This document shows positions 63 to 31,679 of a stretch of DNA of 33,500 nucleotides, piece by piece. Position 1 is the first letter of the stretch; each line of letters starts with the position of its first letter. The stretch lies in contig JALVEU010000140.1 of the NCBI GenBank assembly GCA_027030565.1, positions 1 through 33,500 on the forward strand. Reading direction: 5' to 3'. Made by a program: the position numbers and the translations under genes. This DNA comes from Gammaproteobacteria bacterium (GTDB lineage Bacteria; Pseudomonadota; Gammaproteobacteria; JAJDOJ01). The notes beneath the pieces are model-generated. The model saw only the letters and a list, made by a program, of their open reading frames with translations, was not told the DNA's origin and did not search any database.

Positions 63-1910
63 ATGAGCCTCAGCCCCCCACGGATCAATGCCTTTCTGAC
101 CCTGCTCGCCGTAGTGTTCGCCGCCGTCGGCTGCTTTCTCCAATGGGAGCTGATTGAGAGTCAGAGCCGCGCCGACCGCAGGGCGGCCAAATTCCGACAG
201 GCCATGGAGAACTACGAGCGCGAGAACATCTACTACGATCCCCAGGCCACCATCACCTGGCTGCGCAACCGGCAAAATCCCGCCGGCTACTTCGTCCCCA
301 ACCCGGATCTCATCTTCGAGCCCTCCCAGCGCAATGCCAACACCCTGCGGGCCACGCGCTATGCCATCGCAACGCTCCGTGAACTGGACGCCCTGGACCA
401 AATCAACCGACGGGCCGTGGTGGAGTTTGTGCTGGCCAACTACGTGCCCAACGTGGCAGAGACCCAGAGCGGCCCCTACGCGGACATCTATCGCAACGGT
501 CGCTACGCAGGCTTTCGCACACTGGAAGGCAAGCCGGTGGGCGTCAGGCCGACGATGGACGCCCTGATCATCCTGGACGCTCTGAACGCGCTGGACGATC
601 CCCGCATCCGGCTCGAGGACATCCGCCGCTTCATACTCGTACACCAGAATCCGGATGGCGGGTTCTGGGACGAACACTACCCCGAAAGTGGGCAGTCCTC
701 CTGTCTGAAATGCACCTCTTTCGCATTGCGTGCCCTGGGGGTGATGCATCGCCACACCCACGCACCATTCCCGCCCGTGTTCAAGGAGCAGGTGGCGGGC
801 TTCGTCGCCCGCTGTAGGGACCCGGAAAGTGGGGGATACGGCTCGGCTCCGGGCAAGGCGGCCGAAGACCTCTACAACGTCTTTCGGGCCTTCATCACGC
901 TGTGGTGGCTCGGCGGCGGCTCGGATGCGGCAGGCCAGGCCTTTGTTCGTGCCCACATGGATGTCGGCGGCGCCCTCGACTACGCCAATCGCGAGCACTA
1001 CCTGCCGGCGGCGGGCGCATTCGCCCGCTATCGGAACCATGGCGATCCGCGCCACCCTTCCCTCAAGGCCACGCATCTCATGGTCTGGCTGGCCACGGCG
1101 CTGGGACGTGTGGACAGCCTGGACGTTCAGGCCATCGCCCGTTTCACGGCGAGCAAGGAAAGCCGTCCCGGGGAATATGGGGGCGACATCTATTCCACTT
1201 ATTCCGCCACGGGGATCTTCAAGAAGCTGGGCGTGCGAACGAGCCCGCTGCCCAAACCCGTCCGGCCGCCCCCGTATCGCCCCCCCTTTCCTGCATATCT
1301 GCCGCCGCTGTTCTTCGTCCTGGCCCTGGTCACCCTCACGCTGAGCTACTTATCGAAGCGGCAAGAGCTGGAAACCATCAATCAACTCCTCGCGCATCAG
1401 GCGGCCGTGGACGGGCTCACCGGTGCCCTGAACCGGCTGCGCTTCGAGGAGCTGCTCAGCGCGGAGATGCGACGTGCACAGCGGTATGGGTCGCCACTGT
1501 CGGTGATCCTCTTCGACGCCGACCGTTTCAAGCACATCAACGACCGCCACGGGCATCTCGCCGGGGACCGCGTACTCAGGGCGCTCGCGGAACAGGTCAC
1601 GAAGGCACTGCGGGCCCCGGACCAGCTCGCCCGGTGGGGCGGAGAGGAATTCATCGTACTGGCCCCGGGGACGGACCTGCAGGGCGCGCTGCGACTCGCC
1701 GAGAAGCTGCGCCAGCTCGTCGAACGGACCACCTTCGAGGAGGTGGGACACATCACATGCAGCTTCGGCGTGGCGCAGTACCGGCCCGGCGAGCCGAGTG
1801 AGCGCTTCCTGGAGCGGGCGGACCAGGCCTTGTATCAGGCCAAGCATGCAGGACGCAACCGGGTATGTGCGGAGCGCCGCTACGGAGATGTGGCACGGGT
1901 GTCGGCCTGA
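63..1910 (+). CDS. Membrane diguanylate cyclase with periplasmic prenyltransferase-like toroid sensor
   Basis: Residues 10-29 and about 412-431 are membrane helices enclosing a periplasmic region of about 380 residues; the C-terminal third is a cytoplasmic GGDEF domain. The GGDEF domain has GGEEF at 526-530 and an inhibitory RxxD site (RAPD, 517-520) five residues upstream, so it should make cyclic di-GMP from two GTP and be product-inhibited. The periplasmic part has four repeats of the alpha/alpha-toroid type found in protein prenyltransferase beta subunits and terpene cyclases: around 63-77 (QNPAGYF), 187-206 (QNPDGGF), 244-280 (PESGGYG...PGK...DLY) and 358-390. In farnesyltransferase the last such repeat carries a zinc-binding His in FYHT; here the matching place reads LYNV (Asn272), so catalysis is unlikely and ligand sensing more likely. 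The start is ATG with AGGGA 3 bases upstream. The cyclase call is firm; the sensor fold is inferred from motifs. Confidence 0.88.
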   Translation: MSLSPPRINAFLTLLAVVFAAVGCFLQWELIESQSRADRRAAKFRQAMENYERENIYYDPQATITWLRNRQNPAGYFVPNPDLIFEPSQRNANTLRATRYAIATLRELDALDQINRRAVVEFVLANYVPNVAETQSGPYADIYRNGRYAGFRTLEGKPVGVRPTMDALIILDALNALDDPRIRLEDIRRFILVHQNPDGGFWDEHYPESGQSSCLKCTSFALRALGVMHRHTHAPFPPVFKEQVAGFVARCRDPESGGYGSAPGKAAEDLYNVFRAFITLWWLGGGSDAAGQAFVRAHMDVGGALDYANREHYLPAAGAFARYRNHGDPRHPSLKATHLMVWLATALGRVDSLDVQAIARFTASKESRPGEYGGDIYSTYSATGIFKKLGVRTSPLPKPVRPPPYRPPFPAYLPPLFFVLALVTLTLSYLSKRQELETINQLLAHQAAVDGLTGALNRLRFEELLSAEMRRAQRYGSPLSVILFDADRFKHINDRHGHLAGDRVLRALAEQVTKALRAPDQLARWGGEEFIVLAPGTDLQGALRLAEKLRQLVERTTFEEVGHITCSFGVAQYRPGEPSERFLERADQALYQAKHAGRNRVCAERRYGDVARVSA

Positions 1911-3228: not shown

Positions 3229-3741
3229 TCACACGCCGCCGCTGTGGACGACCTCGTAGTAGAGCTTCTCGAGCTCGCGCTTGTGCTCAGCCTCCTCCTT
3301 GGCCAAAAAGACGAACAGGTCGCGGATGGGACCCTCCGGGGCCGACTCGGCCAGGGACTGGTACTGCTCCATGGCCGTTTTCTCGCGGCCCATGGCGTAC
3401 TGCAGGATGGACTGATCGTCGGGATGCTCGCCCAGATCCGGGATGTGGATGTGGTCGGAGAAGCGGGTGTTGCTGGGCGGCGTCTTGACCTTCTCCTTGA
3501 GCTGGTCCTCAAGGCCCGGGGTCTTGGCCAGGTTCATGAACAGGTCGTAGTGGCGCTGTTCCTCCTGGGCCAGCTCGTCCACCAGCCAGCGGATGTTCTT
3601 GCTCACCTTGGGCGCCAGGTCCCGGTAGAAGTCCCGCGCGGTGCGCTCGAACTCCGAGGCGGTCTCCAGGATCTCGGCCAACGTCGTCTTGGACTGGATG
3701 CGCGCGTAGGCGCTGGGCTGTCCCTCGGTCGGCTCGCTCAT
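3229..3741 (-). CDS. Rubrerythrin-like ferritin-family diiron protein
   Basis: This 170-residue helical protein carries the two ExxH metal motifs of the rubrerythrin/ferritin-like family: E61-x-x-H64 (EEQRH) and E150-x-x-H153 (EEAEH). Helix-1 and helix-3 carboxylates lie near E30/E32 and E120/E125. There is no C-terminal rubredoxin CxxC domain. Family members reduce peroxide or handle iron or oxygen using a diiron site and an external electron donor. Its ATG overlaps the stop of the upstream flavoprotein gene by four bases (ATGA, 3741-3738), which implies translational coupling and a role tied to that redox complex. Possible roles are protecting oxygen-sensitive Fe-S clusters or taking electrons from the flavoprotein; both are inference. 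Confidence 0.8.
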   Translation of the reverse strand: MSEPTEGQPSAYARIQSKTTLAEILETASEFERTARDFYRDLAPKVSKNIRWLVDELAQEEQRHYDLFMNLAKTPGLEDQLKEKVKTPPSNTRFSDHIHIPDLGEHPDDQSILQYAMGREKTAMEQYQSLAESAPEGPIRDLFVFLAKEEAEHKRELEKLYYEVVHSGGV

Positions 3742-5591
3742 GCCGTCTTCTCCAGTTGCGTGAGACAAGCGTCGATGCTCGCCGCCACCCGGTGGCCGTC
3801 GGCCACGGCATGGACCACATCGGGGCCGTGCACATCGTCACCGGCGGCCCACAACCAGGGCACCGCAGTGCGCCCCTCCTCGTCCACCTGCAGGCGCCCC
3901 CGCACCCATTCGAGCTGTTCGATCAGATCCTCGCCGAGCAGGCTCATGTCGGCCATCTGACCGATGGCCTCGACCACCCACTCGCCCTCGTGGAAGCGCT
4001 CGTCCTCGGGGTCCAGCTCGGGGGCGAACCGGCCCTTCTCGTCGAAGATGGACTTCACCCGCCAGGTGACCAGCCCCTTGATGCGGCCGTCCTCGATCAC
4101 CACCTCGCGGGGTCCTCGCGAATCCAGGATCTCGATGCCCTCCTCGCGCGCCTCCTTGACCTCCACCGGGTCGGCCAGGAAGTGATCGAAGTCCTCCAGC
4201 GCCACCACGGTGATGCGCACCTCGCCGTACTTCTGCATCTGGAAACGGGCCATGGTGCGGGCGATGTCCATGGCCACGTTGCCGCCGCCGATGACCACGG
4301 CGGTCTGCGGCACGTCCAGCGCGCGGCCCTCGCCCGCCTCGCGCAGCAGGTCCACCGCGCGCTTGACGTCCTCATGCTCCGAGCCCGGGATGCGCGTGGA
4401 ACGGCCCATCTGCAGGCCGATGGCCAACACCACGGCGTCGAACTCCTCACGCAGCGCCTCCATGGTCACATCCCGACCCACGCGGGTGTTGTAGCGGATC
4501 TCCACGCCCAGGGACTCGATGACCTCGACCTCCCGGTCCAGGATCTCCTCCGGCAGGCGGTAGTAGGGGATGCCGTAGCGGGTCATGCCGCCGGCCTTGG
4601 GCTGCGCCTCGAAGACCACCACCCGATGGCCCTTCTTGACCAGATCGTAGGCGGCGGTGAGCCCGGCCGGCCCCGCGCCGACGATGGCCACGGATCGGCC
4701 GGTGACGTAGTCGGCCTTGCCCTCGGCGGCGATCGCCTTGATGCGTTCGTGGGGAACCCGATCCGTGGCATAGCGCTTGAGCCAGCGGATCGCCACGGGC
4801 TCTCCGCGACGCCCGATGGAGCAGGCGGCCTCGCAGCGGTGGGTGCAGACCCGGCCGCAGACCTGGGAGAACGGATTGGTGCGGTACATCCAGCGCACCG
4901 CCTCCTCCGGCTCCCCGCGCCAGATGGCCCGGATGTACTCGGGGGCGTGCATGTGCGTGGGACAGGCGTCGTGGCACATGCCGCACTGCACGCAGCGCGA
5001 GGCCTCGATGATCGCCTGCTGATCGTCGTAGCCCAGCACCATCTCCTGGAAGTTGTCCACCCGTTCCTCGGGCGGCAGCTCCGGCATGGGCTGGCGCTCC
5101 AGGTCCAGGAGGTCGTTGGTGGGCGTCTTGGTCCAGCCCAGCGGATAGGGTGTGCCGTGGATGCCGTGCTCGTCCGGCAGCACGAAGTAGCTGTCGATCT
5201 CCTCTTGCGTGCAGGTGTGCACGTACTCGCGCGACAGCTTGATGGCGCTGGTGGGGCAGATGTCCACGCACAAGGCGCACCAGCAGCAGCGTCCGTAGTC
5301 GATGGCCGGGCGCAATGGCCGGATCCCCTTGACCGGGTCCTCCGGGGCCCCCGGCACGTGGACCATGGTGATGGCCGCGTTGTCGCAGACCTTCTGGCAG
5401 CTCCCGCAGCCGATGCAGGCGTTCCAGTCGTTGAGGTGAAAGCCCCGGTAGATCTCCGCGGCCGGCCGTGGTTCCAACGGCTCGGTCACCGGCGGCCGGA
5501 ACAGGAACTGCAGGTTCTTGAGCGGCGCCAGCAGCGAGCCGCGGTCCTCGTAACGGACCTCCGAGCGCCGTGCCTTGGGCTTACCGGTCAT
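3738..5591 (-). CDS. NuoI/MbxN-type ferredoxin fused to GltD/NfnB-type FAD-NAD(P)H oxidoreductase
   Basis: This 617-residue protein reads as two fused modules. Residues 1-120 resemble NuoI/MbhN, ending in two [4Fe-4S] motifs: C59-C62-C65-C69 and C102-C105-C108-C112. Residues 180-610 are a glutamate-synthase small-subunit type flavoprotein: Fe-S motifs C200-C203-C206-C210 and C245-C249-C253-C257, an FAD dinucleotide motif GAGPAG (305-310), a second nucleotide motif GGGNVA (435-440), and a C-terminal FAD motif around AAGDD (582-586). In NADPH-dependent GltD the strand after the second motif is followed by arginines that bind the 2'-phosphate. Here it reads VALEDFDHF, which suggests NADH preference (inference). 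It would carry electrons between NAD(P)H and the NuoB-like subunit. Its position next to the NuoD-like gene fits the N subunit of MBX. The upstream gap of 117 bases holds repeat DNA. Confidence 0.88.
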   Translation of the reverse strand: MTGKPKARRSEVRYEDRGSLLAPLKNLQFLFRPPVTEPLEPRPAAEIYRGFHLNDWNACIGCGSCQKVCDNAAITMVHVPGAPEDPVKGIRPLRPAIDYGRCCWCALCVDICPTSAIKLSREYVHTCTQEEIDSYFVLPDEHGIHGTPYPLGWTKTPTNDLLDLERQPMPELPPEERVDNFQEMVLGYDDQQAIIEASRCVQCGMCHDACPTHMHAPEYIRAIWRGEPEEAVRWMYRTNPFSQVCGRVCTHRCEAACSIGRRGEPVAIRWLKRYATDRVPHERIKAIAAEGKADYVTGRSVAIVGAGPAGLTAAYDLVKKGHRVVVFEAQPKAGGMTRYGIPYYRLPEEILDREVEVIESLGVEIRYNTRVGRDVTMEALREEFDAVVLAIGLQMGRSTRIPGSEHEDVKRAVDLLREAGEGRALDVPQTAVVIGGGNVAMDIARTMARFQMQKYGEVRITVVALEDFDHFLADPVEVKEAREEGIEILDSRGPREVVIEDGRIKGLVTWRVKSIFDEKGRFAPELDPEDERFHEGEWVVEAIGQMADMSLLGEDLIEQLEWVRGRLQVDEEGRTAVPWLWAAGDDVHGPDVVHAVADGHRVAASIDACLTQLEKTA

Positions 5592-5610
5592 GGCCGTCCC
5601 CTGGAATACG

Positions 5611-5696
5611 CACCGCGAAGGCGCGAAGCATATGTGTTTGGAGAAACGAGTACACCAATTCCATTTTCTCTTCGCGTCCTTCGCGCCTTGGCGGTG
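5611..5696. repeat. Inverted pair of an 18-bp dispersed repeat in the gap downstream of the NuoD-like gene
   Basis: CACCGCGAAGGCGCGAAG at 5611-5628 faces an inverted copy at 5679-5696 (one base different, with an extra CTTCGCGTC before it at 5670-5678). The two arms could pair around a roughly 50-base AT-richer loop. The same 18-mer occurs as another inverted pair at 6873-6890 and 7037-7054, on the other side of the NuoD-like gene. Together they occupy the two long breaks in an operon otherwise joined mostly by overlapping codons. The arms may form an mRNA hairpin affecting stability or relative expression; this is not shown by sequence. Confidence 0.7.
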
Positions 5697-5708
5697 AAAA
5701 ATATGACA

Positions 5709-6851
5709 TCACCGGTCCACCTCCGGCGGGCAGGCATCCAGCGTGAACATGATCTGGGCCACGTCCTCGATGCGGGCGCCACGGGCCAGGTGCTCCAGGA
5801 CCTGCACCGCGTGCATCATGGAGGCGCCGCGCACGTGGACCCGGTAGGGCTTCTCGCCCCCGTCGGAGACCACGTACCAGGCGAGCTCCCCCTTGGAGGA
5901 CTCCACCCGCGTGTAGGCCTCGCCGGCCGGGACCTTCCAGGCCAGGGGGTTGGGGATCGGCGCGCGCACCGGACCCGGGATCTCCGGGAGCCGCTCGATC
6001 ACCTGGCGCACGATGCGGATGCTCTGGACCAGCTCGGCACGGCGCACCAGGGTGCGGGCGTAGGCGTCGCCCGCCGACTCGGTGGGGATGTCGAACTCGA
6101 GCTGGTCGTAGACCAGATACGGGTCGTCGCGGCGCACGTCGAAGGCCAGGCCCGTGGCGCGCAGATTGGGTCCCGTCACACCCAGCTCCAAGGCGGTCTC
6201 CTGATCCAGCACCCCGACCCCCTTGGCGCGGTCCACCAGCACCTGATTGCGGAAGAACAGGTTGTCGTAGTCGGGCAGGCGCGATTCCAGATAGTCCATG
6301 GTCGCCGCCACCCGACCCAGGAAGCCGGGCGGGACGTCGCGCCGTACGCCCCCGGGGATGTTGAAGATGTGATAGACACGGCCCCCACTGAGCTCCTCGA
6401 ACAGGTCGAGAATGCGATCCCGGTCGGCCACACCCCAGAACATATTGGTGTACATGCCGGTGGTGGAGGCATGGCCGCCGAAGGTGAACAGATGCGCGGC
6501 GATGCGGGAGAGCTCGAGCTGGAGCACACGCAGCCACTGGGCCCGCTCGGGCACCTCCAGCCCGCAGAGCTCCTCCACCGCCAGGGAATAGGACACCTCC
6601 ATGGGCACCGGGTCCGGCACGCAGATCCGGGGCACCAGGGCGATGTTCTGAATCCACAGCCGCCCCTCCATGAGCTTCTCGAAACCGCGGTGCAGATAGC
6701 CGGCGTCGGCCTTGCCCTCGATCACCCGGTCGCCGTGCAGGCGCAGCTTGAAGGCGTAGTTGCCCTCGATGCCGGGGTGGTTGGGCCCGATGAAGAGCTC
6801 GTACTCGTGGCTCGGCGGATGACTCCGGGCCTGGTAGTTCTCAGGACGCAT
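5709..6851 (-). CDS. NuoD/hydrogenase-large-subunit-like protein (MbxL type) with incomplete Ni site
   Basis: This 380-residue protein is of the complex I 49-kDa / group 4 hydrogenase large-subunit family. It opens with GPNHPG (22-27) and continues with KADAGYLHRGFEKL (47-60), as in the family. NiFe hydrogenases bind the metal centre through two CxxC pairs. Here the first site reads R-I-C77-V-P-D80 and the second D-A-C374-P-P-E377, so one cysteine of each pair is kept and the partner is acidic. True complex I NuoD has no such cysteines and also lacks this C-terminal DxC..E..R ending. The pattern is therefore intermediate and argues against a hydrogenase. Together with the NuoB-like subunit it should form the catalytic head. 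Repeat-filled gaps of 117 and 211 bases lie downstream and upstream. No alternative start is needed. Confidence 0.88.
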   Translation of the reverse strand: MRPENYQARSHPPSHEYELFIGPNHPGIEGNYAFKLRLHGDRVIEGKADAGYLHRGFEKLMEGRLWIQNIALVPRICVPDPVPMEVSYSLAVEELCGLEVPERAQWLRVLQLELSRIAAHLFTFGGHASTTGMYTNMFWGVADRDRILDLFEELSGGRVYHIFNIPGGVRRDVPPGFLGRVAATMDYLESRLPDYDNLFFRNQVLVDRAKGVGVLDQETALELGVTGPNLRATGLAFDVRRDDPYLVYDQLEFDIPTESAGDAYARTLVRRAELVQSIRIVRQVIERLPEIPGPVRAPIPNPLAWKVPAGEAYTRVESSKGELAWYVVSDGGEKPYRVHVRGASMMHAVQVLEHLARGARIEDVAQIMFTLDACPPEVDR

Positions 6852-6872
6852 GGGGACTCACCATCGGTCACT

Positions 6873-7054
6873 CACCGCGAAGACGCGAAGTAGCTGTAGG
6901 CCGGATAAGCGAAGCGCATCCGGCACGCCGAGGTTCCAATCGCCCGATGCGCTGCGCTTATCGGGCCTACGGCTTGCCCTGCCCGATGTGCCACCACGAT
7001 CGGGTCCGCGAGGAAGCGCCGTTCGTTCTCGGTGCCCTTCGCGCCTTCGCGGTG
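6873..7054. repeat. Outer inverted 18-bp repeats enclosing a REP/BIME-like element in the NuoC-NuoD gap
   Basis: CACCGCGAAGACGCGAAG at 6873-6890 and an inverted copy at 7037-7054 differ at one base. They enclose the palindromic element at 6898-6972. The arrangement looks like one repeat nested inside another. It fills nearly the whole 211-base gap between the NuoC-like and NuoD-like genes, and no open frame of interest lies in it. Confidence 0.7.
6898..6972 (+). repeat. REP/BIME-like palindromic element
   Basis: Two imperfect palindromes lie in inverted orientation at about 6896-6924 and 6942-6970. Their cores read GATAAGCGAAGCGCATC and, inverted, GATGCGCTGCGCTTATC, each closed by GGCC-rich arms. 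The two halves are about 26/29 identical once one is reversed. The shape and core closely resemble enterobacterial REP sequences (GGATAAGGCG...CATCCGGC type) paired as a BIME. Such elements are usually moved by RAYT (TnpA-REP) transposases; none is in this window. A diverged second copy lies at 11130-11204, inside a coding region. Confidence 0.75.
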
Positions 7055-7062
7055 CACGCCCA

Positions 7063-7641
7063 TCAGTCCTCCCGGCGGCTGTAGCGCTGTTCGTCTGGGG
7101 GGATGGCGATACCGCCCCCCTGGGCCTCGAGCTCCTTGAGCCAATCGGGGCGGTACTCCTGCCAGTTGAAGAATTGATTGATATAGGCCTCGCTGTCGAA
7201 GTCCTTGCGCATGGGCGGAGGGCCGTCCCACTCGGTGAGGATGAACTTCTCCATGAACGGGCTGCCCTCGAAATAGACGCCGAACATCTCGTAGATGTCG
7301 CGCTCGAAGAAGGCTGCGGGCTTGTAGAGATCGTAGACCGACAGATACCTGCCAGGCTCGCGCGGGATGCGCGTGTGCGCCGAAATCAGGGACTGGGTCT
7401 CATAGGACCACACGTGGTAGATCAGCTCGAACTCGCCCTCCGCGATCCAGTCCACGCAGGTGATGGCCGACAAATGCACGTAGGAGGCCTTGCCCTTGAG
7501 GAGCTCAAGGAGGGTGGGCAGGGCGTCGGCATCCACGTCCAGACGCATGCGTCGCTCGCGTTTGCGTCGCATCTCCACCTGCTCGATCTCGGCGAGCAGG
7601 TCGTCCAGCCAGACCTGGAGCTCACGAGAGCCCTGGTTCAT
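7063..7641 (-). CDS. NuoC-like 30-kDa subunit (MbxK type)
   Basis: This is a 192-residue hydrophilic protein. Residues 113-148 match the complex I 30-kDa signature, with ERDIYEMFGVYF followed by LTEWDGPPPMRKDF. The family sits next to NuoD in the peripheral arm and has a structural role without cofactors. I chose the ATG at 7641 because GAGG lies five bases upstream; a GTG at 7647 would add two residues. It begins seven bases after the NuoB-like stop, so the two are in one operon. The long 211-base gap to the NuoD-like gene downstream is unusual, because NuoC and NuoD are normally tightly joined or even fused. Confidence 0.88.
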   Translation of the reverse strand: MNQGSRELQVWLDDLLAEIEQVEMRRKRERRMRLDVDADALPTLLELLKGKASYVHLSAITCVDWIAEGEFELIYHVWSYETQSLISAHTRIPREPGRYLSVYDLYKPAAFFERDIYEMFGVYFEGSPFMEKFILTEWDGPPPMRKDFDSEAYINQFFNWQEYRPDWLKELEAQGGGIAIPPDEQRYSRRED

Positions 7642-7648
7642 CGGCACC

Positions 7649-8341
7649 TCACTTGAGCCGCATCCGATGGGGGATCAGGGGCTGTTGCACCTGCTGCAAC
7701 AGGGCGGTGTGCTCACCCTCGGTCTCGGGCCCATGCAGGCCGTATTGCTGCGCCTCGCCCAGCACGTCCGTGGGCGTCTGCCAGCGCTCGCCGAACAGGG
7801 CCTGCTGATTGCCCAAGTAGTGGTCGTAACGCCGGTAGTAGTCCTTCCAGCTCTCGGCCTTGCCGGTCTTGATGAGGCCCATGAGCTTGCGCATGCCGGA
7901 AACCACCGCCTCGGGCCGCGGCATGCAGCCGGCGATGTAGAGGTCGACCGGCAGGTAGTCGGCCAAGACCTTGGCGGTGGCGTAGCTCTGCCAGTACATG
8001 CCCCCGTTGACCGTACACGAACAGATGCCGATGACGTACTTGGGCGCGGGCATCTGCTCGTAGGTGAGGATGATCCGTTTGAGCGTCTTGACCGAGACGT
8101 AGCCCGTCACCAGCAGGATGTCGGCCTGGCGCGGGGTGACCATGGGCTGAATCCCCAGGCGCTCCATGTCGAAGCGCGAGGTCATCGCCGGGGGCAGCTC
8201 GATGGCCCCGCACCCGGTGCAGTAGTGCAGCATGAACAGCGAGTGCGAGCGGCAGAAGCGCACGAACTCGTCGAAGACATGGGCCAACGGATTGGTCCGC
8301 TTGGCAAAGGCCCCTTCGGTCCGGACAGGCAGCTCTTTCAT
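7649..8341 (-). CDS. NuoB/hydrogenase-small-subunit-like Fe-S protein (MbxJ type)
   Basis: This 230-residue subunit of the NuoB family should hold the proximal [4Fe-4S] cluster that passes electrons to the NuoD-like site. The ligand pattern is C41-x-x-C44 (CTGCGAIEL), C107 (GIC) and C139 (AGCMPRPE). Complex I NuoB has adjacent cysteines (CC) at the first position. CxxC is the hydrogenase and MBH/MBX-like form. An additional Cys109 immediately follows in the motif GICSCTVNGG. The C-terminal 70 residues extend past the family core. Its ATG overlaps the NuoH-like stop (ATGA, 8341-8338). Confidence 0.88.
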   Translation of the reverse strand: MKELPVRTEGAFAKRTNPLAHVFDEFVRFCRSHSLFMLHYCTGCGAIELPPAMTSRFDMERLGIQPMVTPRQADILLVTGYVSVKTLKRIILTYEQMPAPKYVIGICSCTVNGGMYWQSYATAKVLADYLPVDLYIAGCMPRPEAVVSGMRKLMGLIKTGKAESWKDYYRRYDHYLGNQQALFGERWQTPTDVLGEAQQYGLHGPETEGEHTALLQQVQQPLIPHRMRLK

Positions 8342-9225
8342 GACCACATCACCACCGCTAGGCCCAGCAGACCCGCCAGGACCGGCCACTTCCACAGCGA
8401 GCCCAGCATCTGCTCGGCCCGGTAGCGCGGAAACTGAAACGCGATCGTCATGGGGATGGCCACCACCAAGAAGGCCTTGACCAGAAAATCGATCCAGGTC
8501 ACGCCACCGCCCAGGAACAGGGTGGTGTACAGGATACCGGCCGTATACAGGGAGAAACTCTGCATCACGATCAGGCTCCCCAGATACTTGCCGCCCATCT
8601 CCACCATGGGACCGGTGGCGATCTCCGCCGGGGCCACGTAGATCTCGAAGGGCTGCTTGCCCAACATGCCCTGCAGGGCGAACAGCCCCGCAAACGCCAG
8701 CAGCGGCGCCTGGAACAGCCCCCAGCCATGGGCCTGCTGGTATTCGACCATCTGCACCAGGTTGGTGGTTCCATACATCCACGACATGCCGAAGATCACG
8801 ATCACGAACGGGATGTCGTAGGCCAGCATGGCGGTGAGCGCGCGGGAGATGCCGATGGAGGCATTGGGATTGGCGCACTGGCCGGCCGCCAGCGCCATGC
8901 CCAGCGACGGCACCATCAGGAAATAGATGAGCGTGATGACGTCCGTACGGTCGGCGATTCCCGTCATCCCCGGCACGGGAATCAATGTCTCGGCGGCGAT
9001 GTAGCCCCCCACCGCCACGATGATCCCCACGTCGTGGATGAGCCCGTGGGAGATCTGGGTCTGCTTGCCGAAGAACTTCACCACGTCGTACAGGGGCTGG
9101 AAGAACGGCGGACCCACACGCCGCTGAATCTTGGCGGCGATCTTGCGCATCATGAGGAGCATGGCGAGCCCCACCACGAAGGCCACCGCGGGCATCAGCA
9201 CCAGCTCGACGATCAGCGCCATCAT
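8338..9225 (-). CDS. NuoH-like membrane subunit (MbxM type)
   Basis: This 295-residue polytopic protein of the complex I ND1/NuoH family has about eight membrane helices. Family marks include KIQRRVGPPFFQPLYDVVKF (33-52), ISRALTAMLAYDIP (126-139; complex I normally has YE where this has YD) and EIATGPMVEMGGKY (201-214). NuoH links the peripheral Fe-S arm to the ion-pumping antiporter-like subunits. The start ATG at 9225 overlaps the upstream stop (ATGA). A second ATG follows directly at 9222. At 295 residues it is shorter than bacterial NuoH (about 325-340), as hydrogenase-related homologues tend to be. Confidence 0.9.
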   Translation of the reverse strand: MMALIVELVLMPAVAFVVGLAMLLMMRKIAAKIQRRVGPPFFQPLYDVVKFFGKQTQISHGLIHDVGIIVAVGGYIAAETLIPVPGMTGIADRTDVITLIYFLMVPSLGMALAAGQCANPNASIGISRALTAMLAYDIPFVIVIFGMSWMYGTTNLVQMVEYQQAHGWGLFQAPLLAFAGLFALQGMLGKQPFEIYVAPAEIATGPMVEMGGKYLGSLIVMQSFSLYTAGILYTTLFLGGGVTWIDFLVKAFLVVAIPMTIAFQFPRYRAEQMLGSLWKWPVLAGLLGLAVVMWS

Positions 9226-11093
9226 GCCGCCACCCACCAGAGCGCCAGGACGGTCACCCCCAGGAGCCAGGCGGCAGGCTGAACCACCCGGTAGACCCCC
9301 GCGGCGGCCTGGGCCAGCAAGTCCGTGGCGGCGACCACGGAATCCTGCAGCCACTGGAAGCTGCCGCGATACCAGGGACCGATGCGGTGCATGAGCCCGG
9401 CATAGAAGTTGTCGCTGTAGTGGTAGCGCACCTCGGCGGTGAGAAAGTGGCCGCCGGCATAGTTGTCCAGTTGATGCACGGTGCGCGCCCGGCCGCCGGC
9501 CAGGAAGATCAAGGCCCCGACACCGAAGCCGGCGAACAGGATGCCCACCACCCAGAGCATGTCCAGCCCCCCGTCCGGCCTCTCCACACCCCCCAGGGTG
9601 GGCGCCAGCACGGCCAGCCCAAGCTCACGCTGCACCGTGGTCAGCCAGTCGAGGACCAGGCCCGGGGCGAGCCCCGTGACGAACACGATGAGGGAGAGGG
9701 CGAGCATGGGTGCCAACATGGACCCGGGGACCTCGCGCACCGACTCGTGCTCCACGCGCAACTGGCCCAGGAAGATGTTGTGCAGCAGCTTATAGACCGA
9801 GACGATGGTGCCCAGGGTACCCACCACCGCCGCCACGAAGAGCAGCGGCTGCCCGTCGTCGATGAGCGCCCGGTAGATGAGCCACTTGGACACGAAGCCA
9901 TTCATGGGTGGGAGCCCCGCCAGGCCGATGATCCCGACGAGCAGCACCAGGAAGGTCAGCGGCATGCGGGTGACCAGACCGCCCAGCTTGTTGAGATCGG
10001 CCGTGCCCGTGCGGTAGACCACCGCCGTGACCGCCATGAAGAGCGCCGCCTGATAGGTCGCATGGTTGAACACGTGCATCAAGCCCCCAGCGCTCGCCAG
10101 GGCATCCCCCATGGCCACCCCCATGAGCATGTAGCCGCCCTGCCCGATGCCGTGCCAGGCGAGGAGCCAGCGCGCATCGTTCTGCTTGAGCGCCGTGAAG
10201 GTCGGCAGGACGATGGTGAAGGCGGCGATCCAGGCCAGCAGCTCGTGGGCCTCCAATGGTGTCCACGGAATGCTGAGGGCCTTGAGCGTCCCCAGCCCCA
10301 GCACCCCGAACAGGGTGAGCAGCATGGCATACAGGCCCATGCGCGAAGAGATGGCCCCCAGGAACGCCGATCCGGGTCCCGGCGTCTCGGCGTAGGCGCC
10401 CGCCTGCCAGAGGTGGAAGGGCAACAGGCCCATCTTCACGCCGAAGCCACCGGACAACAGGATCACCAGGGACCACAAAGTCCCGGCAGAGAGGTCCGGC
10501 ACCACCGCCGCCAATGCGCCAAACTCGAACGAACCGGTGAGCGCATGGGACAACACCATCGCCGCCATGACCGCCATGGCCCCCCCGATGGCATACACCA
10601 GGTACCGCAGCGCCCAGCGCACCCCCACGCCCCCGGCTGCGAGCATCAGCACGAAGCTCGCCCAGCTCACCAGTTCCCAGCCCACGAACAGGGAGAGGAA
10701 GTCGCGGGAGGCCAGGAGCACGTACATGGTCGAGGGGTTCAGGGCCAGGGCGAGCTGCAGCAGGCGCAGATCACCACCTTGCTCGGCGTAGTGCCGCCCC
10801 CAGGCGCCACTCATGAACCACGCCGCCGCCAGCGCGGCACCCGCCGTGATCACGGCGAAGAACCACGACAGGGCCGTGAACTGCCAGCTCAGGCCGTACC
10901 CCAGAACGCTGAATGCGGGGGAGGCCGGCACCGGATCCGCCCCGTAGGCCAGCGGACCCATGAACGCCACCAGCAGGAACTGCACTCCATACAACGCAGT
11001 GAGCCACGGCCCAGCCGAGGGCGAGCGCCCGAAGAGCCCCGCGGCCAGGGCGGTCAGGGCAGAGGCCAACCAGAGCCCGTCCAGCAGCGTCAC
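9222..11093 (-). CDS. NuoL/MrpA-N-like antiporter subunit (MbxH' type)
   Basis: This 623-residue protein is of the proton-conducting antiporter family (complex I NuoL/M/N, MrpA/D), with about 14 membrane helices plus a hydrophilic stretch (about 534-600) and a final helix at 604-622. The TM5 glutamate (FVGWE140) and TM7 lysine (GVK220) are present, as is Lys303. The HAxxK lysine of the broken TM12 helix is replaced: it reads HATYQ (Gln348). The start is GTG at 11093, forming a GTGA overlap with the mrpD-like stop and preceded by GAGGGG at seven bases. An in-frame GTG at 11129 is possible but poorer. It lies beside the NuoH-like gene, where H' lies in archaeal MBX, and is the second of two antiporter-type subunits in the operon. 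Confidence 0.87.
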   Translation of the reverse strand: MTLLDGLWLASALTALAAGLFGRSPSAGPWLTALYGVQFLLVAFMGPLAYGADPVPASPAFSVLGYGLSWQFTALSWFFAVITAGAALAAAWFMSGAWGRHYAEQGGDLRLLQLALALNPSTMYVLLASRDFLSLFVGWELVSWASFVLMLAAGGVGVRWALRYLVYAIGGAMAVMAAMVLSHALTGSFEFGALAAVVPDLSAGTLWSLVILLSGGFGVKMGLLPFHLWQAGAYAETPGPGSAFLGAISSRMGLYAMLLTLFGVLGLGTLKALSIPWTPLEAHELLAWIAAFTIVLPTFTALKQNDARWLLAWHGIGQGGYMLMGVAMGDALASAGGLMHVFNHATYQAALFMAVTAVVYRTGTADLNKLGGLVTRMPLTFLVLLVGIIGLAGLPPMNGFVSKWLIYRALIDDGQPLLFVAAVVGTLGTIVSVYKLLHNIFLGQLRVEHESVREVPGSMLAPMLALSLIVFVTGLAPGLVLDWLTTVQRELGLAVLAPTLGGVERPDGGLDMLWVVGILFAGFGVGALIFLAGGRARTVHQLDNYAGGHFLTAEVRYHYSDNFYAGLMHRIGPWYRGSFQWLQDSVVAATDLLAQAAAGVYRVVQPAAWLLGVTVLALWWVAA

Positions 11094-12667
11094 GAGCGTG
11101 CCCCTCGAGTCGGCGACCCCGCCGGCCACCCATAGGCCCGATCAGCACGGCCCATCGGGCGATCGGAACCTCTGGAGGCGGGATGCGCTTCGCTGATGCG
11201 GTCTTCGCGCTGCCCGCGCCGGGCTACCGCGCGATCACCGAGCACGGTGCGTATATAGCCCTGGACGTCGGCCGCTTGCGCGGCCATGGCCTTCAGACCA
11301 TCGCCCAGCGGGTGCAGGGCGAATACGGAACCCACGAGCACCAGGCCGGCGAGGGAGGCCGTCACCAAGTCCAGCCCCCGATGCGGCCCGGGACTCGTGT
11401 AGCCGGCTTCACGCGCCAGTAGCACCGACAAGGTGCGAAACAGATAGGCCGCCTCCACAACCGTGGCCGCCATGACGGTCAGAGCGCCGAGCCACGCCAG
11501 TCCGGTGCCCAACCCCATCAGGCCCATCACGGTGAGGAGCTTGGCCCAGAAGCCCGGCAGGGGCGGCAACCCCACCAGCGACAGCGCGAACAGGATGAAC
11601 AGCCCGCTGGCCAGCCAGTGGCCGCGACCGGCGCCGCGCAGGCCTTCGATGGACCCGCCCCAACGCTCCGCCAACAGGAACAGCGCGGGCTTCACCAGCA
11701 GATGGTGCAGGGCCACGGCGAGCCCGGCGACGATGCCCGCCTCGCCCGGCACCGAGAAGGCGACGAACACGATGCCGAGCTGCCCGATGGACGAGAATGC
11801 GAACTGGCGCCGGAGGTCACGGGCCCGCCAGGCGGCCAGCTCGCCGGCCACGATGCCCAGCATGCCCAGCACCAGCATGAGTTGGGCCGCCTCGGGTTGC
11901 GGAAAGATCAACACCAAGATCCGCACCACCACCAGAACCGCGAGCTTGGACACCAGCCCCGCCAACAGCCCAGCCAGACGCCCGGATACGCTGCCATACA
12001 CCTCCGGCACCCAGCCGTTGACCGGGAACAGCTCGCCCTTGACCCCGAGGCCGATGAGCATGAGGGCAAAGGCCGCCAGCCCCACCGGGTCCTGGAGCCG
12101 CTCCGGGGCGAGTGTGGCCAGATGGGCCAGGTTCAACGTGCCGGTGCGCAGGTAGACGATGGTGATCCCGGCCAGCAGCAGCACCGAGCCCGCCGCGCTC
12201 AGCAGCAGGTAGCGCAGCGCGGCCCCCTGCGCCGCACCGGTACCGCGGCCGGCGATGAGCCCGAAGGAGGCCGCCGCCGTGAGCTCGTAGAAGACGTACA
12301 GGTTGAAGATGTCGCCGGAGAGCGCCAGACCGGTGGCCGAAGCGGTGAGCACCAGCGTGAGCGCGAACTGCTGCGGCGTGCCCTCGCGCGGCCACAACAG
12401 CAACGCCATGAGAGGCACCGCCAGCCCGAACAGCAGGGCCACGGCATCCAGATAGAAGACGATCCCCAGCGGGGGGCGGAAGCCGCCGATGGCAATGGCC
12501 ACCGTGCCACCGTCCAGGCGCGCCCATGCGACCCACAGGACGCCGATGCAGACGGCCAGCGTCCCCCAGCCCAGCCACTGTGCCAGGGCGCGCGAACTGC
12601 GCCCCAACGCTGGAGTCAGGAAGCCAGCGAGCAGGGGCAGGGCCACGGCCAGGACCACGAAGTTCAT
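11090..12667 (-). CDS. mrpD: MrpD-like antiporter subunit (MbxH type) with repeat-derived C-terminal tail
   Basis: This 525-residue, roughly 14-helix antiporter subunit resembles MrpD closely. TM5 carries NLYVFYE128 and TM7 carries GLGVK210, the Glu/Lys pair needed for ion transport in Mrp. Lys241, HHLLVK326 and FWAK376 are also present. The membrane domain ends near residue 475. From about 484 to 513 the sequence is hydrophilic and Arg-rich, and it is encoded by a diverged copy of the palindromic repeat seen at 6898-6972. The tail is therefore probably a late acquisition that moved the stop codon (inference). The ATG at 12667 overlaps the mrpC stop (ATGA). Confidence 0.9.
   Translation of the reverse strand: MNFVVLAVALPLLAGFLTPALGRSSRALAQWLGWGTLAVCIGVLWVAWARLDGGTVAIAIGGFRPPLGIVFYLDAVALLFGLAVPLMALLLWPREGTPQQFALTLVLTASATGLALSGDIFNLYVFYELTAAASFGLIAGRGTGAAQGAALRYLLLSAAGSVLLLAGITIVYLRTGTLNLAHLATLAPERLQDPVGLAAFALMLIGLGVKGELFPVNGWVPEVYGSVSGRLAGLLAGLVSKLAVLVVVRILVLIFPQPEAAQLMLVLGMLGIVAGELAAWRARDLRRQFAFSSIGQLGIVFVAFSVPGEAGIVAGLAVALHHLLVKPALFLLAERWGGSIEGLRGAGRGHWLASGLFILFALSLVGLPPLPGFWAKLLTVMGLMGLGTGLAWLGALTVMAATVVEAAYLFRTLSVLLAREAGYTSPGPHRGLDLVTASLAGLVLVGSVFALHPLGDGLKAMAAQAADVQGYIRTVLGDRAVARRGQREDRISEAHPASRGSDRPMGRADRAYGWPAGSPTRGARS
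11130..11204 (-). repeat. Diverged copy of the REP/BIME-like element inside the mrpD coding region
   Basis: Read in the opposite orientation, bases 11130-11204 align without gaps to 6972-6898 over 75 bases, with 61 matches by my hand count (about 81%). Shared blocks include GCGAAGCGCATCC, GAGGTTCC and ATCGCCCGATG. The copy is translated as part of the MrpD-like C-terminus. It ends one base before an in-frame GTG (11129) of the next gene and 38 bases before the mrpD stop. Confidence 0.75.
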
Positions 12668-28147: not shown

Positions 28148-30970
28148 TCAGCCCGGGTTGCGGCGACGGCGTGCCGCCCAGCCGGCCGCCGCCAGACCGA
28201 GCAGCGTCCATGGGCCCAGCGCGCCACCACCACTGGCGCCCTCCACCCGCACCGCCACGGTATCCGTCGCGCTGGCGCCGCTGTCGTCGCTCACCGTCAG
28301 CTCGAAGACCAGGGTGCCATTCTCGTTGGGCGCCTGGAAGCTGGGCGTGGCCGTATCCGCGCCATGCAGCACCACGGCCGGACCGGAGACCTGGGTCCAG
28401 CGATAGCTGAGCGGATCCCCCTCCGGATCCGTACTGGCACTCCCGTCCAGTCGGACCGTCGTCTTGGCCTGCACCGTCTGGTCTGCACCGGCATCGGCAC
28501 GGGGCTTGAGGTTGATCTCCAGGGTCACGGTATCGGTCTCGGACGCGCCGAAGCGGTCCACCACCGTGAGCTGGAACGCCAGGATGCCGTCCTCGCCGGG
28601 GACCGTGAAGCTGGGCGTCTTGCTGTCCGGATCACTCAACTGGACGGCCGGGCCGAGGGTCTGCACCCAGGTATAGGTGGCGCCGTCGCCCTGGCTGCGG
28701 CTGCCATCCAGGGTCACCCGCTCGCCCTCGGTGACCTTGCCGCCGGGACCCGCGTCGGCGATCAGCGCCGTCTTGCAGATGTAGAGCCGCACGTCGTCCA
28801 GATACCAGCCCCGCGCCCCCACGTTGGGGTCCGTGGAGATCCGCCACCGGAACCGCACGTGCTGGCCCGCCAGCGGCCCCAGATCCAGGCGCGTCGACAC
28901 GTAGCCATGGCTCAGGCGCGTGAACGCCGCGTGGCCAGGGTTGGGATTGCCCTGGTTGGGATCCAGCGCCCCGTTGTAGCCCTGGCCGGAGTCGATGAGG
29001 TGACCCGCGTCGAACCAGGTCTTCCCGTTGTCGGTGCTGTACTCGAGAAACCCGCCGTCGAAGGTGCGCGTACCCGACTGCCCGAACTCGAACTCGAAGG
29101 CATGACGGAAGTGCAGATAGGCCTTGGCGGGGACGCCCACCGCCGGCACCATCTCCGCCACCGAATCGGTGGTCTCAGGCAGATCGGGCGCACTGAGCAT
29201 GGACCGGCCGGAGGTGGCGTAACCCTGCGCGTAGGCCCAGGCCACCGGCCCGCTGAACGTCTTGAAGGCCCAGTATCCGCGACTCGGATCCTCCATGTCG
29301 TCGAAGAACAGGTGGTGCGGCACCAACCCGGCCGGACACAGGGCCGCCTCGGGATTGAATCCCGGCTGCGGCTGCTCGTTCATCTCCACCGCTTCGGTGG
29401 CAGCGCGGACCTGGTCACAGTCGTCGGCGGTGATGCCCCGGGTCCCCACCAGATTGAGGCAGGCCTGATGCAGATCGTAATACAAGTCCAGATAGTCGCT
29501 GCCCGAGGTGAGCAGATTGGTCAGGGCCTCGTAATAGATGGCGGCCACCTTGTCGATGCCGAGTCCGCGGACAGTGACACCGTTGAAGGTGTCGCCATCG
29601 GTCATCAGGTAGGCGGCCTTGTTGTTGATGCCACTGTTGATGTGCACCCCGCCGTTGTCGGTGGCGGCCCGGTGGTAGAGGGGGCTGCTCATACGGTCCG
29701 GCTGCACGGTCCCGAAGGGCCCCAGGCGTTGATCGCTGGCGGGGTTGCGCATGTCGCGCACGGCACCGGAGAAGGCGATGGCATCCTCGCCGAGCAGCCA
29801 GCGAACCTCGGGAGAGTCGTCTCCAGCCCCGTCGGTCAGGTCGATGAACTCACCGAAGATGTCCGACAGCGACTCGTTGATGGCCCCAGACTGGAAGTAG
29901 TAGAAGAGGTTGGCCTCGAACTGGGTGATGCCGTGCACCATCTCGTGGCCAGCGATGTCGTCGGTGACCGCGCCGTCGCAGTACGTCATTTCGTCACCGT
30001 CCCAGAAGGCGTTGGGGCAAGACACCCCATCGTTCCAATGCACGGTGGAGATCAAGGGCGAGCCCAGGTCGTCGATTCCATCGCGACCGAATCGCTGGAA
30101 AAAGAAATCATAGGTATGGCCCGCGAAGCGGTGGGCGTCGTCGCCCTCTGGGTCGAGCCCCCCCGTGCAGTCCGGCTGCGCCTCGGTGCACAGGAGGGTC
30201 TTGCGCTGGACCGCGGTCCCGTCCGCCGAGTAGGTCAGCCGGTCCCGGGCGGCGTGGATCTGATTGAAATGCAGCGCGACCGAACCGTCGTGGGCATCGA
30301 TCAGGACCAATTCACGTACGGGGAGGCCAGTGGCCTTCACTTCCAATTTCCAGACCAGGCGCGCAGGTCCATCGCCGGGTTGCAGCAGGCGGGGGACGTA
30401 GACGAACAGCTGCGCCTCACCGGCCTGGAGTGCCGAAGGGTCCAGCCCATGCCATTTGGCCACTGCGGACAGGGCGGTGGCCCGGGCCTGCGCTGCGTCG
30501 ACCAGGGGCTGCGTGTCCACCGCTGGGCTTGCCCCCTCCCCGTTGATGGCCAGCACCGCCCCATCGGGCGACAGGTGCACCCGAAGCTCGCCGCCCAGCA
30601 CTGGGACACCGCCCACCTCCTGGCGGTAGCCCACCACGGCGCGCCCCCCATCCAGCACCCGTTTCCATACGGGCCGCAGCTGCGCGGCGGGGTCCCGCAC
30701 CCCGAACAGCGGCGCATACTGCTGGAGTGCGGCCGAGGCACGTGCCTTCACGGAGGCCCGGGCATTGAGGGGTGCGTCCACAGGCAGGGCGCCACCCGGC
30801 GGGGCACCCACGAACCGCACCTGCTGGGTGGCCGTGTCGGTGCCTACCCGCACCCCCTGCTTCTCCAGAGCGGTGACCGAAAGCGAGGCTTCGGCCCCGG
30901 TCGAGGTCCAGAGTGTCACCCCCAATGCCGCGCCCACACACCAGCGCAATCGTTCCCCGGTCGTCCACAT
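28148..30970 (-). CDS. Secreted M4 (thermolysin-family) metalloprotease with Ig-like repeats and GlyGly-CTERM
   Basis: This 940-residue preproprotein has a signal peptide (1-28, ending AEA) and an N-terminal propeptide of the FTP/PepSY kind (about 30-235). The M4 catalytic domain (about 240-530) holds zinc motif HEMVH (342-346), third ligand Glu366 in GAINESLSDIFG, and the catalytic His443 in GGVHINSG. A beta-rich MAM/immune-inhibitor-A-like region follows (about 555-732), then two PKD-type domains (about 738-820 and 823-910). The C-terminus (913-940) is a Gly-rich GGGALGP, a hydrophobic helix and RRRR, the GlyGly-CTERM signal processed by rhombosortase in type II secretion. Zinc and catalytic residues are intact. 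ATG 30970 is chosen because the signal peptide begins there. The gene next to it encodes a possible inhibitor. Confidence 0.94.
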   Translation of the reverse strand: MWTTGERLRWCVGAALGVTLWTSTGAEASLSVTALEKQGVRVGTDTATQQVRFVGAPPGGALPVDAPLNARASVKARASAALQQYAPLFGVRDPAAQLRPVWKRVLDGGRAVVGYRQEVGGVPVLGGELRVHLSPDGAVLAINGEGASPAVDTQPLVDAAQARATALSAVAKWHGLDPSALQAGEAQLFVYVPRLLQPGDGPARLVWKLEVKATGLPVRELVLIDAHDGSVALHFNQIHAARDRLTYSADGTAVQRKTLLCTEAQPDCTGGLDPEGDDAHRFAGHTYDFFFQRFGRDGIDDLGSPLISTVHWNDGVSCPNAFWDGDEMTYCDGAVTDDIAGHEMVHGITQFEANLFYYFQSGAINESLSDIFGEFIDLTDGAGDDSPEVRWLLGEDAIAFSGAVRDMRNPASDQRLGPFGTVQPDRMSSPLYHRAATDNGGVHINSGINNKAAYLMTDGDTFNGVTVRGLGIDKVAAIYYEALTNLLTSGSDYLDLYYDLHQACLNLVGTRGITADDCDQVRAATEAVEMNEQPQPGFNPEAALCPAGLVPHHLFFDDMEDPSRGYWAFKTFSGPVAWAYAQGYATSGRSMLSAPDLPETTDSVAEMVPAVGVPAKAYLHFRHAFEFEFGQSGTRTFDGGFLEYSTDNGKTWFDAGHLIDSGQGYNGALDPNQGNPNPGHAAFTRLSHGYVSTRLDLGPLAGQHVRFRWRISTDPNVGARGWYLDDVRLYICKTALIADAGPGGKVTEGERVTLDGSRSQGDGATYTWVQTLGPAVQLSDPDSKTPSFTVPGEDGILAFQLTVVDRFGASETDTVTLEINLKPRADAGADQTVQAKTTVRLDGSASTDPEGDPLSYRWTQVSGPAVVLHGADTATPSFQAPNENGTLVFELTVSDDSGASATDTVAVRVEGASGGGALGPWTLLGLAAAGWAARRRRNPG

Positions 30971-31163
30971 GATTTGTTGTCCTCGCTGCCTTTCCAGCCC
31001 TTCCGACTTCTTTCTGTCTGCGACCCCGCGCACCGCGCGGTCTGCAAGCAATGGTCCTGCGGCAAGTGCTCGCAAGCCTGTGACCGCAGGCCGCAGTACA
31101 CCCTCGCCCGCACAGCCGGGCCGGCCTCGGGTCGCGGCCCCGGCGGCGGAGCGCCGGTCACAT

Positions 31164-31679
31164 TCACTCTTCGGGCACTTGCCCCAGGCAGTCCTTGCGC
31201 GAACCGGCCGACTCGAGAAGCGCGAAATAGCCGGCCAGCTTCCTGATGAGCGCCTGACGGGGATCCGATTCCGGAAGCGGCCCCACCCAGGCGGTCCGGT
31301 GCACGCCGCGCGCATCGATCAACGTGAGATCGTAGTCCAGGCAGTCACGACACGCTGTGGACAAGGCGGCAGACGGTGCCGTTTTCCGGTCGAACTCCAC
31401 CCTCGCGGCCATCGCCGCCAGCGCGTCCAGCTCCTGCCGCGTGGCCGCGCCACGGGCGCAACGTCCCCGACGGCGGTCCGCGACCCACACCACACCATCG
31501 CCCCGCACGCGGAGCACTCGCACGAGTCCCGTCAGGCCACCGGAGACCTGGAGGCGCAGCTCCTCGAAGTCCGCACGTGTTCCTCCGGAGTCGGGGTGGG
31601 TGACGGCACAACCGAGCAGGAACAGGGAGAGCAGGGCCATGGCCGCCGTGCGGGCGCCGAGCCTACTATGTGGAGCCAT
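31164..31679 (-). CDS. Lipoprotein resembling emfourin-type M4 protease inhibitors
   Basis: This 171-residue lipoprotein precursor has lipobox LLGC (21-24), with Cys24 lipidated. The mature part begins with a strand and the motif LRLQVSGGLTGLVRVLRV (41-58) and later has LDYDLTLIDARGVHRTAW (114-131) and a predicted final helix DPRQALIRKLAGY. This strand-SGG(x)xGL...YxLTxxDxxGxHxT pattern resembles emfourin, the inhibitor encoded beside protealysin-type M4 proteases. The adjacency to an M4 protease gene supports this. Unlike known emfourins it has a signal peptide and lipid anchor and an inserted Arg/Cys-containing region (C74, C110, C113). Its ATG overlaps the lptE stop by 14 bases; Met at 31640 would also keep the lipobox. 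The family assignment is from memory of motifs and is not certain. Confidence 0.62.
   Translation of the reverse strand: MAPHSRLGARTAAMALLSLFLLGCAVTHPDSGGTRADFEELRLQVSGGLTGLVRVLRVRGDGVVWVADRRRGRCARGAATRQELDALAAMAARVEFDRKTAPSAALSTACRDCLDYDLTLIDARGVHRTAWVGPLPESDPRQALIRKLAGYFALLESAGSRKDCLGQVPEE

Follow-up and report, generated by a model that had tools for sequence, protein, structure and literature searches.

Diguanylate cyclases that are held in the membrane by two transmembrane (TM) helices and that sense through a periplasmic domain, such as those of the Cache, CHASE and GAPES types, follow one layout, in which a TM helix, the periplasmic sensor, a second TM helix and a helical linker lead to the GGDEF domain with its RxxD inhibitory site, and the protein described here is built alike. 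For most diguanylate cyclases the input signal is not known. In the protein prenyltransferases, to which the sensor of this protein is related by fold, the active site lies at the N-terminal end of the inner helices of the toroid and the lining at the positions considered below is largely aromatic. The initial annotation had stated that no described signalling protein with such a sensor is known, and none was found in the literature, although this covers open-licence papers and an absence of this kind is not proof. A census of sensors in cyclic di-GMP (c-di-GMP) signalling lists nothing under prenyl, terpene or toroid, and according to it a sensor domain for lipids has yet to be identified (PMC8846402). 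Both domains of the protein come from known families, and as far as found it is the combination of toroid and GGDEF domain that is undescribed.

The window, i.e., the whole analysed stretch of 33,500 nucleotides, carries the complete gene at 63-1910 on the + strand, adjoining the contig start. It opens with an ATG, is closely preceded by an in-frame stop at 42-44 and encodes 615 amino acids; all features of the gene given below lie on the same strand. The protein is ordered into TM1, a periplasmic domain, TM2 and a GGEEF diguanylate cyclase domain. TM1 (75-224) has its hydrophobic core at residues 8-26 and belongs to one predicted helix, residues 5-54, that runs to the toroid. This periplasmic (alpha/alpha)6 toroid (225-1238, residues ~55-392) is joined by a proline-rich stalk (1239-1286) to TM2 (1287-1412), which has its core at residues 409-427 and continues as a predicted helix, residues 413-450, the link to the GGDEF domain (1401-1862, residues 447-600). 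The placement of the sensor between two membrane helices, as initially annotated, is therefore borne out both by the hydrophobic segments flanking the toroid and by the full-length model (pLDDT 89.6, pTM 0.65), in which the two long helices connect toroid, membrane and GGDEF domain. Pfam assigns PF00990 (GGDEF) to the output domain with E 1e-43 and PF00432 (Prenyltrans) to the N-terminal part with E 6e-12 and 46 bits against a cut-off of 26.5, and PF00432 is also matched in 11 of 11 aligned relatives. Within residues 1-440, PF00432 is the sole Pfam family to pass its cut-off, with no Cache, CHASE, GAPES or similar sensor family; NCBIfam gives no match above cut-off ahead of the GGDEF domain, and matches to PHROGs are confined to the GGDEF part.

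Structure prediction with AlphaFold2 for residues 35-406, using 11 natural sequences as input, gave a confident toroid (pLDDT 93.8, pTM 0.91) built of six helices on the outside and six on the inside. The "four repeats" reported initially have to be revised accordingly, since the model contains six helical hairpins and hence a complete (alpha/alpha)6 toroid, whereas the two motifs noted at that time are both present, QNPDGGF at residues 195-201 and PGKAAEDLYN at residues 263-272. A Foldseek search against the PDB returned as best matches the beta chains of Rab geranylgeranyltransferase and farnesyltransferase (E 2.5e-9, probability 1.00, target-normalised TM about 0.7). Terpene cyclases ranked lower, and MstE was also among the fold matches; the beta subunit of geranylgeranyltransferase II (GGTase-II) was matched by a sequence-profile search as well (E 2e-6). 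A viral fold search gave no match at E <= 0.001. The assignment to the prenyltransferase/terpene-cyclase type of toroid was thus upheld by prediction and fold search. Since the region is modelled as a toroid and belongs to no named sensor family, neither of the two outcomes that the initial annotation had named as speaking against it, a different fold or an already named sensor family, was found.

The survey of the architecture across genomes that had been proposed with the annotation showed that toroid and GGDEF domain recur together in several Gammaproteobacteria genera. The same sensor was found in 17 homologues, 16 of them with the GGDEF domain and the seventeenth (L058) cut by a contig end; toroid and GGEEF are combined in 17 of 17 full-length sequences, the window's included, and L058 is the eighteenth sequence. 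Because such homologues exist and the fold is matched, a chance origin of the protein is excluded. The window protein, searched once against about 85,000 species genomes, yielded 10 homologues, in MAGs and isolates of the window's own genus, Kangiella, another member of the Kangiellaceae, Sedimenticola and a bacterium of the Thiotrichales, the homologue searches being a coarse first look by which distant versions may be missed. Sampling of whole genomes detected the toroid cyclase in 4 of 369 genomes of the class and in 7 of 195 in one further order, and in a sample of 399 genomes of the phylum the window's toroid cyclase itself was the only one found. Among the further PF00432 matches whose loci were read in the 369 sampled genomes of the class, none is joined to a GGDEF domain, and these proteins are mostly of squalene-hopene-cyclase-like length and motifs. 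Two loci of the class with PF00432-type proteins without toroid-GGDEF, L053 and L044, hold a 478-aa frame and an open frame of about 6,200 aa with QNSDGGW repeats. Plasmid-borne copies of the toroid cyclase were not found.

The gene neighbourhood gives no partner that is conserved across genera, the neighbours being housekeeping or unrelated genes, and a conserved operon partner was rejected because the neighbours differ between genera. In Kangiella the toroid-cyclase gene stands between hemL, which is preceded by an aspartate carbamoyltransferase gene, and a short-chain dehydrogenase gene; in Sedimenticola it is found near HdrA-like genes, and in the window it adjoins a lipase-like gene. At the Kangiella loci (L015-L020) the position of the gene is fixed, yet the gene itself (about 42-94% identity) diverges much faster than most of its neighbours. 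Elsewhere in the window, a gene cluster at 3738-12667 on the - strand resembles a Nuo-like or hydrogenase-related complex; its complex I-like genes encode the 49 kDa, 30 kDa and NADHdh subunits and two subunits of the Proton_antipo_M type, and they are accompanied by a PRK13984-like oxidoreductase, a fused iron-sulfur and NAD(P)-binding protein. A rubrerythrin-like protein (3229-3768, - strand) follows directly after this oxidoreductase cluster, and a 1055-aa protein with an M4 (thermolysin-like) metallopeptidase and PKD domains is encoded at 28148-31315 on the - strand.

The residues by which related toroids perform their chemistry are missing from the sensor. When the sensor is aligned by HMMER with the farnesyltransferase beta subunit, N272 takes the place of the zinc-binding His of the DFYH motif; 18 of 18 sequences have Asn or Asp there, so that the replacement of this His in the LYNV segment, proposed initially, holds in every homologue. 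The ungapped alignment to GGTase-II beta places the same His on Y271, a position that is never His in the sensor homologues. The repeat register, assigned by hand, puts the zinc Asp on L215 (Leu or Met) and the zinc Cys on C217 (Ala in four members). The Asp/Cys/His zinc triad of protein prenyltransferases is not kept in the 18 sequences, and none of them has DxDD or DxDTT in its sensor region. With the zinc triad lost and the terpene-cyclase DxDD lacking, catalysis of a known kind by the toroid is unlikely as judged from these motifs, and an active prenyltransferase or class II cyclase was rejected on the same grounds.

Conservation is densest at the position of the prenyltransferase active site. 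The sensor has 74 invariant residues; with the cavity lining placed from predicted helix boundaries and alignment register, 31 of the 60 positions that form the mouth, at the N-terminal ends of the inner helices, are invariant, compared with 43 of 292 elsewhere (p 4e-9), while the outer helices are depleted in such positions (4/63). Most of the residues invariant at the mouth are charged or polar, with Arg, Lys, His and Asp abundant; they include R99, R162, D166, R275, K335, H338 and D375, and R96 and K216 are near-invariant. Invariant residues are found along the inner helices as follows: helix 1 (342-383, residues 94-107) has invariant T98, R99 and A101, helix 2 (543-581, residues 161-173) the invariant stretch RPTMDA at residues 162-167, and helix 3 (705-758, residues 215-232), which follows the QNPDGGFWD motif (645-671, residues 195-203, invariant save P197), carries K216, replaced by Arg in one member, and invariant S219, F220 and A221. 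Helix 4 (873-914, residues 271-284) combines N272, at the farnesyltransferase zinc His position, with invariant F274, R275 and A276; helix 5 (1062-1100, residues 334-346) has invariant K335, H338 and W342, and helix 6 (1188-1229, residues 376-389), with invariant Y377 and Y380, is preceded by an invariant GGD at residues 373-375. Over the 17 full-length sequences, the window's included, mean pairwise identity amounts to 51.6% for the sensor and 51.9% for the GGDEF domain. When the window genome is compared with a congener, identity reaches 69% for the toroid and 68% for its own GGDEF domain, whereas the control for this genome pair, which consists of just two other two-TM cyclases, gave 27% and 51% for the sensors and 82% and 78% for the GGDEF domains. 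These identities point to strong selection on the sensor.

Taken together with its position between membrane helices, this conservation suggests a receptor role for the toroid. The explanation we favour, and which we consider probable, is that of a transmembrane diguanylate cyclase in which a periplasmic (alpha/alpha)6 toroid was turned from an enzyme into a receptor whose charge-rich pocket binds a polar or anionic ligand. Given the abundance of Arg, Lys, His and Asp among the invariant residues at the inner-helix mouth, we infer from the alignment a specific ligand that is polar or anionic, possibly amphipathic, rather than purely hydrophobic. The initial annotation had assumed an isoprenoid, lipid or other hydrophobic ligand. 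Such a toroid would keep a hydrophobic cavity and sense an isoprenoid, a hopanoid or another lipid without turning it over; the closest folds bind prenyl diphosphates or squalene, the domain adjoins the membrane and has lost the known catalytic residues, and the window genome has a squalene-hopene cyclase. We nevertheless regard this proposal as unlikely, since the mouth is charged, no lipid-gene neighbour is conserved and just 2 of the 9 carrier genomes searched, the window genome and its congener, showed a squalene-hopene cyclase. As the enzyme was undetected in the other 7, hopanoids are an unlikely common ligand, and hopanoid or squalene was rejected as the ligand on this basis. An amphipathic, phosphorylated isoprenoid is a possible ligand. 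In a specific form of this idea, which we hold to be rather improbable, the toroid would be a receptor for a periplasm-exposed phosphorylated isoprenoid, e.g., the carrier undecaprenyl (di)phosphate, its phosphate held by the charged mouth and its prenyl chain by the barrel.

Conservation of this strength would also fit an enzyme that is not recognised as such, or a protein partner. An active periplasmic enzyme of unrecognised chemistry, acting for instance on a phosphorylated or glycan substrate with occupancy or turnover as the signal, would explain why the toroid is conserved to the degree seen in a catalytic domain and why Arg, Lys, His and Asp are so frequent among the invariant residues in the active-site position, and other six-hairpin toroids are glycosidases (weak viral matches only); however, no known catalytic motif is matched, and the placement between two membrane helices and the fusion to a GGDEF domain favour sensing, which leaves this explanation with little probability. 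Least probable is that the toroid docks a protein partner in the periplasm, the conserved residues being the interface: prenyltransferase beta toroids do pair with an alpha subunit, and a complement TED-like toroid is marginally matched by Pfam in one member, but invariant positions are concentrated on the inner helices and scarce on the outer ones, opposite to what an external docking surface would show, and no gene neighbour is conserved across genera.

For the favoured receptor, the output domain appears competent. The GGEEF active-site signature (1638-1652, residues 526-530) is invariant in all homologues covering it, as are D485, D487, F489, K490, N493, D502 and K594, and an RxxD inhibitory-site motif, RAPD, is found at 1611-1622 (residues 517-520). 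The GGEEF domain therefore looks active, as the initial annotation had it, and cyclase activity would be expected from its residues. In the proposed mechanism, a toroid of the prenyltransferase/terpene-cyclase superfamily would have passed from enzyme to receptor by losing the zinc triad, lacking the DxDD acid and keeping a charge-rich mouth. A specific polar or anionic periplasmic ligand, possibly amphipathic and phosphorylated, would bind at the inner-helix mouth and shift TM1 and TM2, which flank the toroid, relative to each other. Since TM2 continues as a helix to the GGDEF domain, this shift would pass via helix 413-450 to the geometry of the GGDEF dimer and change the c-di-GMP output, and the RxxD site would provide product inhibition.

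A prenyltransferase/terpene-cyclase toroid as periplasmic receptor would be a sensor fold that we did not find described for c-di-GMP signalling, and it would exemplify the recruitment of an enzyme fold as a receptor. The defined invariant pocket residues make a ligand search and mutagenesis direct. If undecaprenyl (di)phosphate were indeed sensed, the status of cell-envelope synthesis would be coupled to c-di-GMP.

In comparison with known systems, the sensor shares with the beta subunits of GGTase-II and farnesyltransferase (PF00432) the (alpha/alpha)6 toroid, QNPDGGF-type motifs and, at the N-terminal ends of the inner helices, a conserved site. It differs from them by its periplasmic location and its fusion between two membrane helices to a GGDEF domain, by Asn/Asp, Leu/Met and Cys or Ala in place of the zinc ligands His, Asp and Cys, respectively, and by a lining that is charged instead of aromatic, and identity in the structural matches is about 12-18%. 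With squalene-hopene cyclase and other class II terpene cyclases it has the toroid fold and QxxDGGF/W motifs in common, but it lacks DxDD or DxDTT and is fused to GGDEF; moreover, squalene-hopene cyclase has two toroids and the sensor one, and the sensor is present also in genomes in which that cyclase was not detected. Compared with the periplasmic-sensor diguanylate cyclases of the Cache, CHASE and GAPES types, whose overall layout it follows, the prenyltransferase toroid is the only Pfam family above cut-off ahead of the GGDEF domain, and its conservation equals that of the catalytic domain to which it is fused, which is not the case for the sensors of the two further two-TM cyclases compared in this pair of genomes.
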